From: Dokdonella koreensis DS-123
GTDB lineage: Bacteria > Pseudomonadota > Gammaproteobacteria > Xanthomonadales > Rhodanobacteraceae
Reading direction: 5' to 3'
Assembly (NCBI RefSeq): GCF_001632775.1
Contig: NZ_CP015249.1
Span: 414,686 to 478,685 of the forward strand
DNA: 64,000 nt
Shown: piece after piece, positions 5,737 through 58,787 of the stretch
Layout: every line of letters begins with the position of its first letter
How positions within the stretch are numbered: the stretch's first letter is position 1
Notes under the pieces: model-generated
The model's database searches: none
Told to the model about the DNA's origin: nothing
The model's input: the letters and a program-made list of their open reading frames with translations, nothing else
Position numbers and translations under genes: made by a program

Positions 5737-6020
5737 GGCAGCTCCGGGAGGATACGGGCCGCAGCGTGCGGCGGGCACGGTGCGTCGCCGTAGGTCTTCC
5801 AAGGAGCATGCCAGGGCGGCGCGGTGCCGGCCGCCCGGCCGATCAACGCGTTGCAGGCGGATGCGGCGGCCCGCCGCGCGGCGGGCGTCCGTTGACGGAC
5901 AGCGCCGTCCGTCCGTGGACGCCGGGTGTTCGCGGGTCCGGATGCGGGCCGCGTTCGGCCCGGGACGAGGCAGGCGCCGCGCGCCGGCGTGCGGCGGCCC
6001 CGTTCGGCGACGCCACCCCC

Positions 6021-35586: not shown

Positions 35587-35857
35587 CTAGGGCGTGTCAT
35601 CAATCCCCCGGTAGGCCGCGCCGTTCTTGCGTGCGTCCGTGACAAGGAAGAGGGAGGCAGTGGACGTCGGTCCACGCCCGAGCGATGACGCAGTCCCGGG
35701 CGCACGCAAGAGCGGCCCTACGGGTTGGCCCTGGAAAGCCGCCAGCGTGCGTTGCGCGGCTTGACCTGACGGCCAGTCAGGCGCGGCGCCACACACCACC
35801 CCCTGACGACTTTCCAGGGCCAACGCGACCTGCCGGGGGATTGATGACATGCCCTAG
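35587..35857. repeat. 271-bp MITE-like element, copy 1
   Basis: The element is bounded by 25-bp inverted termini (35587-35611 and 35833-35857, one mismatch), each ending in CTAG. Inside are two palindromic arms. Arm 1 pairs 35625-35635 with 35701-35711 and encloses a GTGGAC/GTCCAC hairpin. Arm 2 pairs 35724-35738 with 35810-35824 perfectly over 15 bp and encloses AAGCCGC/GCGGCTT and CTGAC/GTCAG hairpins. A second copy of the same length lies at 57402-57672. It encodes no transposase and lies between the GT2 gene and the HExxH gene. Confidence 0.9.
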
Positions 35858-57201: not shown

Positions 57202-57372
57202 ACCGGCCGGGCCGGTTCGCCGTGTGGGGCGAGCGGAGCACGGCGGGATGCCCTTGGCCGTTGCGGTCCGCACCGGTCTTGGAGGCCGCACCTGCGGGCC
57301 CCTCGTGAGAGGGGCCGCGCGCGCTGACCCCCGACGGCCCGCGCCCCCGGCCACGTGTGACGGCGGGCCGGC

Positions 57373-57405
57373 GCGACCCGCCCGGGGACGGATGACGTGC
57401 CCTAG
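57373..57405. repeat. Diverged terminus of the 271-bp element family
   Basis: Thirty-three bases align with the right end of the 271-bp element (GCGACC, a G-rich run, GATGAC, GCCCTAG) with several differences. They share the CTAG at 57402-57405 with the left end of full copy 2. No matching left end is visible upstream, so an older copy has probably decayed. Confidence 0.5.
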
Positions 57406-57672
57406 GGCGTGTCATCAATCCCTCGGTAGGCCGCGCCGTTCTTGCGTGCGTCCGGGCCAAGGAAGAGGGAGGAAGTGGACGTGGGTCCACGCCCGAGCGA
57501 TGACGCAGTCCCGGGCGCACGCAAGAACGGCCCTACGGGTTGGCCCTGGAAAGCCGCCAGCGTGCGTTGCGCGGCTTGACCTGACGGCCAGTCAGGCGCG
57601 GCGCCACACAACACCCCCTGACGACTTTCCAGGGCCAACGCGACCTGCCGGGGGATTGATGACACGCCCTAG
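57402..57672. repeat. 271-bp MITE-like element, copy 2
   Basis: This copy has exactly the same length as 35587-35857 and about eight base differences by eye. Its inverted termini begin and end with CTAG and differ from each other at one position. Both palindromic arms and the inner hairpins are conserved. The right-hand CTAG contains the TAG stop of the minus-strand DUF486 gene. No transposase is encoded. Confidence 0.9.
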
Positions 57673-58007
57673 TCCAGGAAGATGAAGAACGCCGCCAGCG
57701 CGATCAGCGCGAAGCCGACCAGGTGGTTCCACTTGATCGCCGCGCCGAGATAGGTGACCGAGAACACCACGAAGACCACCAGGGTGATGATCTCCTGGAT
57801 CGTCTTGAGCTGGGCCGCGTTGTAGACCGTGTAGCCCATCCGGTTGGCCGGCACCTGCAGGCAGTACTCGAAGAACGCGATGCCCCAGGCGACCAGGATC
57901 ACCGCGAACAGCGGCCGGTCGGTGAACTTCAGGTGCCCGTACCAGGCGAACGTCATGAACACGTTCGAGGCGATCAGCAGCAGGATCGGGGCGGTATGGG
58001 TCCACAT
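57669..58007 (-). CDS. DMT family protein (DUF486)
   Basis: The product has 112 residues and four membrane helices (TAPILLLIASNVFMTFAWYGHLKF at the start, IQEIITLVVFVVFSVTYLG in the third). This is the DUF486 group of small drug/metabolite-transporter-like proteins. Length is normal for the family. Its stop codon (57671-57669) lies in the CTAG at the end of the 271-bp element, so insertion happened at the stop without shortening the protein. Confidence 0.9.
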   Translation of the reverse strand: MWTHTAPILLLIASNVFMTFAWYGHLKFTDRPLFAVILVAWGIAFFEYCLQVPANRMGYTVYNAAQLKTIQEIITLVVFVVFSVTYLGAAIKWNHLVGFALIALAAFFIFLD

Positions 58008-58175
58008 GGGACGGCACTCCGGCGCGAAGGATGGCGGGGGCCGCGAGCCTAGCCCAATTGCCGTGCCCGAGGGTGTGCCCGCGCCGCGCTTGGGCGAGAA
58101 TGGGCGCCGGCGCCGCCGGGCGCCGCCGCTTCCCCGCCGTGCCGGCGCGGACCGTCCTCCGACCCGATCCCCGAC

Positions 58176-58787
58176 ATGGCCAAGAATCCGTTCCGCAACG
58201 CCCAGTACCTGATCAGTGCGCACCACCTGCGCGACCTGCCGCCCGACGGCGGCGCCGAGGCCGCGTTCGCCGGGCGCTCCAACGCCGGAAAGTCCAGCGC
58301 GCTCAACACGATCTGCGACCAGCAGGGCCTGGCGCGCACCAGCAAGACGCCGGGCCGCACGCAGCAGCTGGTGGTGTTCCCGCTCGACGACGCCCACCGC
58401 CTGATCGACCTGCCCGGTTACGGCTACGCCAAGGTGCCCGAGAACCTGCGCCTGCACTGGCGCGGGCTGATCGACACCTACCTGCGCACGCGCGAGGCGC
58501 TCAAGGGGTTGGTGCTGATCATGGACGTGCGCCACCCGCTGCGCGAGTTCGACCAGCAGATGCTGGAGTATGCGGTGGCGACCGGCCGCGAAGTCCATTG
58601 CCTGCTGACCAAGGCCGACAAGCTCTCGCGCAGCGAAGGCATGCGCACGCTGCTGGCGGTGCGCAAGGAGCTCCAGGCGCGGGCGCCGCAGGCCAGCGCG
58701 CAGCTGTTCTCGTCGCTGGCCAAGACCGGCGTCGACGAGGCGCGCGCGGTGCTGGCAGGCTGGCTCGGGCTCGCCGGCGGTGACTGA
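58176..58787 (+). CDS. engB: Ribosome biogenesis GTPase YihA/YsxC (EngB)
   Basis: The product has 203 residues with all G motifs: G1 GRSNAGKSS, G2 around TSKTPGRTQ, G3 DLPGYGYAK, G4 TKADKLS and G5 SSLAK. EngB assists assembly of the 50S subunit and is usually essential. It carries the TPGRTQ signature of the TrmE-Era-EngA-EngB group. No strong ribosome site is visible before the ATG. Confidence 0.97.
   Translation: MAKNPFRNAQYLISAHHLRDLPPDGGAEAAFAGRSNAGKSSALNTICDQQGLARTSKTPGRTQQLVVFPLDDAHRLIDLPGYGYAKVPENLRLHWRGLIDTYLRTREALKGLVLIMDVRHPLREFDQQMLEYAVATGREVHCLLTKADKLSRSEGMRTLLAVRKELQARAPQASAQLFSSLAKTGVDEARAVLAGWLGLAGGD

Follow-up and report, generated by a model that had tools for sequence, protein, structure and literature searches.

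A probable IS5-type MITE of Dokdonella koreensis, sited mostly on stop codons, with a two-armed core widespread in related genomes

MITEs are usually viewed as remnants of insertion sequences (ISs): the ends matter and the middle drifts. NEMIS, ERIC, and YPAL are MITEs that are transcribed with neighboring genes, fold, and affect mRNA stability; the element described here is likened to them by description only, and their hosts are different. MITEPsy1 of Pseudomonas syringae is a precedent for our element, being a probable IS5-type MITE, noncoding, with 18-nt inverted repeats and a 4-nt duplication at CTAG or YTAA (PMC3189936). Unlike our element, it is 100 nt long, has well conserved copies reported only in P. 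syringae (similar sequences occur more widely), and is described in that text with no mention of a two-arm core (PMC3189936). MITEAba12 of Acinetobacter is likewise non-autonomous, shares its ends with an IS, and is spread over the Moraxellaceae, but it measures 111–114 bp, makes 9-bp duplications, and takes its ends from ISAba12; its inverted repeats are most conserved and its center variable, whereas in our element the core junctions are most conserved (PMC6382973). The GTAG/CGTC REPs, alongside which the NEMIS, ERIC, and YPAL repeats are named, are palindromic and extragenic, and neighboring ORFs often take their TAG stop from the end of a GTAG REP (PMC3733652). Those repeats are RAYT-linked, whereas our element has IS5-type ends, and where a REP or BIME is a 20–40-bp palindrome tagged GTAG or CGTC, our element has 271 bp and CTAG at both ends (PMC3733652). 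Similar in its ends is ISPssp5 of the Psychrobacter plasmid pP32BP2, a member of the IS5/IS427 group with inverted repeats GGGTGTGTCATCAATTA and GGGCGTGTCATCAATTA; the first 15 nt of the latter equal those of our element behind CTA (PMC6514802). It differs in being an autonomous IS of 837 bp, with direct repeat TA and no arms mentioned there (PMC6514802).

The window, the whole stretch of 64,000 nucleotides of Dokdonella koreensis DS-123 that was analyzed (contig positions 414686–478685), contains two copies of the element on the + strand, at 35587–35857 and 57402–57672. An earlier note on this DNA had put both at 271 bp with about eight differences; each is exactly 271 bp, and they differ at eight element positions (22, 54, 56, 72, 82, 126, 210, and 264). 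The terminal 34 bases form inverted repeats that include CTAG (copy 1, 35587–35620, the 5′ side of the terminal stem, and 35824–35857; copy 2, 57402–57435 and 57639–57672), with 31 of 34 positions matching in either copy (mismatches at 8, 26, and 30 in copy 1 and at 22, 26, and 30 in copy 2); the 25-bp inverted ends closing in CTAG that had been described are correct, with one mismatch each. Between the ends of copy 1 lie arm 1 (35621–35715), which has the apical hairpin GTGGAC-GTCG-GTCCAC and the conserved segments AAGGAAG and GATGACGC, a junction mini-hairpin CCC-TAC-GGG (35716–35724), and arm 2 (35725–35823), which has the apical hairpin CCTGAC-GGCCA-GTCAGG and a conserved CGGCTTG. Equal length and alignment with copy 1 place the corresponding parts of copy 2 at 57436–57530 (arm 1), 57531–57539 (mini-hairpin), and 57540–57638 (arm 2). 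The perfect 15-bp outer stem reported for one arm is present (GTTGGCCCTGGAAAG/CTTTCCAGGGCCAAC), both copies are predicted to fold as a four-way cloverleaf, in keeping with the cloverleaf-like folding proposed before, and no transposase is encoded, as none fits within 271 bp. The surroundings of the two copies differ. Copy 1 does not stand at a stop; the genes called on its two sides are divergent and lie at distances of 108 and 188 bp. The right-hand CTAG of copy 2 contains the TAG stop of a − strand ORF (57669–58598), whose 3′ end specifies a 112-aa hydrophobic protein with matches in nine of ten genomes of the genus, D. koreensis counted; at its left, copy 2 has its CTAG in common with a decayed end of an older element (CTAGGGCACGTCATCCGTCCCCGGGCGGGTCGCG, 57372–57405, − strand), a homology judged by eye.

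The genome-wide count extends well beyond this pair. The 4.45-Mb single-contig genome holds 21 full-length copies (E ≤ 5.2e-128, the best 40 of 72 first-look candidates having been scored), comprising 19 distinct sequences that lie 1–5 substitutions from the consensus (mean 2.7 of 271). CTAG stands on both sides of 20 of the 21, the remaining copy having CTAA on one side, and the printed flanks are unlike between copies. The end pattern CTAGGGCRTGTCATCAA, with up to two mismatches allowed, occurs 25 times forward and 23 times reverse, while a reversed-pattern control gave 0 and 0. Decayed or partial copies occupy at least eight places: of the nine weaker matches at loci L022–L030, two (L023 and L027) represent a single 148-bp copy that has arm 1 but not arm 2 (G000:C1:1001234-1001381, with CTAG at either side). 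At G000:C1:1497260-1497652 (L015/L028), a decayed inverted copy directly adjoins a full one.

An IS with matching termini occurs in another genus. The IS5-family IS of genome G014 (L220, ~830 bp) reads CTAG-GGGCTGTCATCAATTG ... CAATTGATGACACGCC-CTAG, its opposite end read from the outside in being CTAG-GGCGTGTCATCAATTG; like the element it has CTAG at both ends, one of its termini matches that of the element at 18 of 18 nt and the other at 88.9% of 18, and unlike the element it carries transposase ORFs. The ends alone are common to both, as no longer match between the window element and this IS was found. Its two ORFs score 128.5 and 95 bits against the IS5 family model NF033580 (cut-off 110, the second alone falling below), and they match Pfam transposase models, as does a transposase relic in D. 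koreensis itself. This relic scores 114 bits to NF033580 and lies beside a CTAGGAGGTGTCATC end, with TTGATGACACACCCTGG ~1.8 kb away; of 80 genomes searched with its protein, 8 gave matches, among them D. koreensis, where the protein matches itself only. A PF01609 search of the D. koreensis genome gave two loci, the relic and a 348-aa open DDE frame (G000:C1:810947). The latter we set aside as a helper: matching ends were not found at its locus, where a fuzzy scan gave scattered weak matches to the element end. Neither this search nor that with the relic protein found an intact helper transposase in the genome.

Elsewhere, IS and element do and do not coincide. The arm-2 core finds no match in G014, the genome whose IS matches best; G028, whose IS resembles that of G014, and G025 have both IS and element. 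The G025 IS is bounded by CTAGAGCCTGTCGTCAT and, at its opposite end, ATAGAGCATGTCGTCAT, as in A-type ends, and G025 contains 24 matches to the relic protein. A pair of A-type ends 918 bp apart in G011 was rejected as a full IS, the enclosed gene being not transposase-like by eye; this locus (L209, G011:C5:372400-373800) could represent a captured gene. Armless hairpins of inverted repeats were also seen (L211, L212, L213, L215, L216, and L217), with TAA on both sides in L213 and L215. Short and noncoding, with terminal inverted repeats and with ends shared with IS5-family ISs of other genomes, the element has the features of an IS5-type MITE. We infer with considerable force that it is moved in trans by an IS5-type transposase, because an IS5-family IS has matching ends and CTAG and the D. 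koreensis genome keeps a transposase relic. The earlier proposal of recent mobility driven in trans is thus well supported by the 21 dispersed copies, the CTAG ends, an empty site, and the end-matched IS; the search it called for, an IS with the same termini, leads to the G014 IS and to the published ISPssp5.

A transposase of this type would bind the ends and use CTAG as its target for insertion. Whether all of CTAG or just its TA is duplicated makes no difference to the product, which has CTAG on each side in either case, so these alternatives are indistinguishable here. Judged by a home-made codon-usage gene caller, 17 of the 21 copies overlap the TAG stop of a called gene by the 4 bases CTAG. 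In a 464-kb sample of the genome (L249–L268), CTAG occurs at 99 sites where base composition predicts 1265, making it ~13-fold rarer than expected, and 31 of these 99 sites are TAG stops of called genes. Insertions would fall mostly on stop codons because CTAG is rare in this GC-rich genome and about a third of its sites are TAG stops, and the duplication would restore the stop. Relative to other CTAG sites, of which 29 of 94 are such stops (five element ends left out), the 17 of 21 is an excess (Fisher p 3.7e-5). A passive reading, in which the target lies at many gene ends and harmful insertions are lost, would be enough to explain it. The genes entering the element in D. koreensis number 10 from the arm-2 side and 7 from the arm-1 side.

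Copies in other genera show a related pattern. Both ends were recognized in 84 of 88 distinct copies. An exact 3-nt repeat is present in 16 of the 84 and absent in 68; all 16 are TNA (TTA 5, TCA 5, TGA 4, TAA 2), and shuffling gave a mean of 5.3, with 0 of 2000 shuffles reaching 16. These repeats and the CTAG on both sides of 20 of the 21 D. koreensis copies agree with the target duplications of IS5-type elements (CTAG/YTAR, TA, or TNA). Of the 84, 17 have a called stop right at the inverted repeat and another 8 have it one base further in (25 in total), while every other offset within 40 bp holds at most 4 stops. The duplication would rebuild the stop in these cases as well, because TNA equals TAA or TGA or a complement of these, just as CTAG contains TAG on both strands. 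Genes enter from the arm-2 side more often than from the arm-1 side (30 versus 14; exact cases, 11 versus 6).

The sister species G001 has an orthologous site without the element and, for a second copy, the orthologous gene end without it. At L014, D. koreensis has GGCTCTAG-[element]-CTAGCGCGCAGCG and G001 has GGACTGTAGCGGCATCCACTCTGCGCAGCG, with a single TAG stop in common and the element absent; the G001 site is not a perfect pre-insertion sequence, since it has 13 extra bases and GTAG instead of CTAG. For the copy at 57402, the same gene in G001 ends in GGACTAG and no element follows; homology does not extend to the far flank, which in D. koreensis resembles an old element end. The check for CTAG at empty sites that the earlier note had proposed therefore returns GTAG with a shared TAG stop at one site and GGACTAG at the other. 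A second empty site was sought at L013, where only short weak matches and no ortholog were found. That the two window copies stem from segmental duplication of a fixed noncoding locus, with homologous flanks, would agree with their equal lengths, but the unlike flanks of the 21 copies and the G001 site without the element rule this out for practical purposes and leave it the least probable reading by far.

The element's inner part extends much further than its ends. BLAST of 60 genomes gave matches in 15, D. koreensis included, and none in nine congeners (best 12 candidates per genome); relatives keep the length of the element, and similarity is concentrated in the inner part while the ends change. 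Among the matches listed in a contig pattern scan, most belong to Dyella, Rhodanobacter, Fulvimonas, Luteimonas, Xanthomonas, and Pseudoxanthomonas, and a small number are MAG records from other groups. An arm-2 model of 104 positions, built from 44 of the 68 sequences of the alignment described below, matched 61 of 299 genomes of the order at E ≤ 1e-5, D. koreensis included, in 23 of 85 genera (best 13 candidates per genome), and 15 of the 299, again including D. koreensis, have at least 13 scored candidates. In a class-wide sample of 274 genomes, matches came from D. koreensis and G480 only; G480 lies outside the order, and five loci there have CTAGGGAAGCTCTGC-like ends or decayed forms of them, with the core motifs in the same order. 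A deeper arm-2 search of six genomes gave 32 matches in G002, 23 in G009, and 4 in G007, all congeners, and eight in G028, where some places are counted once per strand; G001 and G014 gave none. At the congener loci examined, the ends of the element are CTAGGGAGGTTCTGAAC- or CTAGGGATGTTCTGATC-like, and twelve elements with ends of this kind fold with a terminal stem and two arms that flank a small hairpin.

The core occurs on at least four end types. Pairwise identities of ends and bodies correlate (0.62), yet they can part company: L065 and L070 have ends at 0.94 and bodies at 0.68, and L066 and L079 have ends at 0.38 and bodies at 0.82. This discordance would fit end switching or fast co-evolution of the ends with transposases. 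A 44-bp REP-like palindrome (ACGCGGGGA...GAGGAGCGAGG) occurs inside arm 1 of elements of different end types (L080:1465, L086:1468, L121 on the − strand at 5944, and L143:3344), at the junction in L178 (− strand, 4961), and outside elements in L184:164 and L198:4851. A phage or plasmid origin was discounted, as the search gave no phage match and a single partial plasmid match, in Xanthomonas sacchari. A literature search limited to papers outside subscription found no published description of the element.

Copy 1 is predicted to fold as RNA with −188.5 kcal/mol on the + strand, against −117.2 ± 5.2 for 200 dinucleotide shuffles (z −13.6), and with −192.3 on the − strand (z −13.4). To follow the structure through relatives, 119 near-full copies from their loci, D. 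koreensis copies included, were filtered for redundancy to 74, with D. koreensis limited to two, and removal of six that carry inner insertions gave a set of 68 (alignment A1). RNAalifold on A1 gives 92 pairs that make up the terminal stem, arm 1, the 3-bp mini-hairpin, and arm 2, and 76 of the 92 have double-sided changes, so that the compensatory changes whose absence would have spoken against the structure are abundant. Paired cells amount to 95.6% (77.6 ± 0.3 in shuffles), double-change cells to 1026 (252 ± 14), and the covariation score to 0.484 (0.147); these comparisons are not probabilities, because the sequences are related by descent. Shifting the pair partners by 1–3 columns lowers pairing to 33–41%. 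The loop triplet of the mini-hairpin (A1 columns 135–144) is often found in both reverse-complement forms (GAA/TTC, GGA/TCC, TGC/GCA), as if inverted.

Conservation along the 68 sequences peaks inside the element. Mean column identity is 0.96–0.97 at the junctions, 0.91 in the arm 2 apex (a figure inflated by the use of a pattern in that apex to select most of the loci), 0.85 in the arm 1 apical region, 0.88–0.89 in the ten outermost bases, and 0.65 in the remaining terminal stem; the arm 2 outer stem, at 0.55–0.57, nonetheless keeps its pairing. We repeated the measurement on the 16 A1 relatives that BLAST had retrieved with the window element as query, a set that is itself selected for similarity, and obtained 0.98–0.99 for the junctions, 0.90 for the arm 2 apex, 0.87 for the arm 1 apical region, 0.87 for the ten outermost bases, 0.64–0.65 for the remaining terminal stem, and 0.59–0.62 for the arm 2 outer stem. 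The best-conserved part is therefore the core junctions and not the ends, with the apices about level with the outermost ten bases.

Stem mismatches bear on which strand is read. Counted on the + strand, G.T and A.C mismatches number 70 and 70 in the terminal stem, 65 and 18 in arm 1, 26 and 72 in arm 2, and 162 and 161 overall. After thinning at 80% identity to 23 sequences, the ratio of pairs leaning toward G.T to pairs leaning toward A.C is 11:3 for arm 1 and 4:14 for arm 2 (Fisher p for the difference 0.0036). Tests of the single arms are borderline, with p of 0.049 and 0.21 on 68 sequences, 0.118 and 0.041 on 42, 0.057 and 0.031 on 23, and 0.18 and 0.55, not significant, on 11; few columns carry much of the signal, and outside the top three the counts are 27 versus 15 in arm 1 and 23 versus 43 in arm 2. 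Arm mirroring was assessed in nine of the twelve folded elements with CTAGGGAGGTTCTGAAC- or CTAGGGATGTTCTGATC-like ends: arm 1 and arm 2, each read from its own side, are more alike than in any of 200 shuffles in five of the nine (L120, L146, L164, L165, and L367). Seven A/B/C elements gave no such signal; in one of them, L089, it was the direct comparison that stood out, with a score of 28 where shuffles reached at most 24. We take the opposite mismatch leanings of the arms as a hint that each may be under selection in whichever strand is read from that arm's side.

What the arms do can be read in several ways. Tentatively, we consider it most likely that the inner core acts in cis as a structured 3′ end for transcripts entering from either side: transcripts of the gene on the left would meet arm 1 on the + strand and those from the right arm 2 on the − strand, and the arms would end, protect, or mark the 3′ end. 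The stop codons that abut 17 of the 21 copies, the opposite mismatch leanings of the arms, and the mirroring in five of nine elements argue for this; against it, the leaning comes from few columns with borderline single-arm tests, the mirror signal is absent in the seven A/B/C elements, and copy 1 stands away from any stop and shows no T run or terminator-like pattern. The last result also disfavors a simple intrinsic terminator. The earlier idea that the inner structure has a function of its own accordingly survives in part: spread and conservation favor it indirectly, while its termination variant, in simple intrinsic form, does not gain. Alternatively, the arms might be passive parts of an ordinary MITE, their palindromes kept by template switching. 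Quasipalindrome correction of this kind yields double-sided changes without selection, which counts for such a reading, and the mini-hairpin triplet in reverse-complement forms is what inversion would produce; nonpalindromic inner segments persist across genera and end types, however, and in the 16 BLAST relatives junctions and apices are better conserved than most of the terminal stem, although its ten outermost bases also reach 0.87. We regard passive arms as a real possibility but a doubtful one.

Rather unlikely, in our estimate, is a role at the level of DNA, with the arms forming cruciforms or binding a protein (transposase, nucleoid protein, or replication factor) and so aiding movement or persistence. 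The overall balance of G.T and A.C is what would be expected without selection on one RNA strand, and the junction sequences are 96–97% conserved, but the arms lean to opposite strands, and one-armed or armless repeats with the same kind of ends exist (L023/L027 in D. koreensis; L090, L115, L142; L212, L213, L215, L216), perhaps through later deletions. The same balance disfavors an RNA gene on one strand, and a small RNA produced from a single strand and acting in trans is very improbable: its fold would be very stable and its copies many, but there is no overall one-strand wobble bias, no promoter-like site was found at copy 1, and the covariance models of Rfam 15 gave no match in the 64-kb window at the gathering threshold. 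A looser Rfam search of four loci returned three sub-threshold matches, all in L140 and one overlapping its element. A resemblance to attC was also considered.

Taken together, the element is very probably a non-autonomous IS5-type mobile element with stop-codon siting and an inner core widespread in relatives. Its middle is probably doing something, since its junctions are best conserved and its architecture spans genera with different ends. The cloverleaf core could be an old module, with a function independent of the transposon ends, as a two-sided 3′-end device, a view to which we give limited credence. Stop-codon siting and a widespread conserved core set the element apart from known IS5-type MITEs, and it is abundant in the order. 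Once inserted, the hairpin element would be the first thing downstream of a gene, which suggests that target specificity can render insertion nearly harmless and yet put strong hairpins at gene 3′ ends. If the core does act as a two-sided 3′ end, a selfish element would give genes a ready-made structured 3′ end without harm, with arm 1 serving the gene on the left and arm 2 that on the right.
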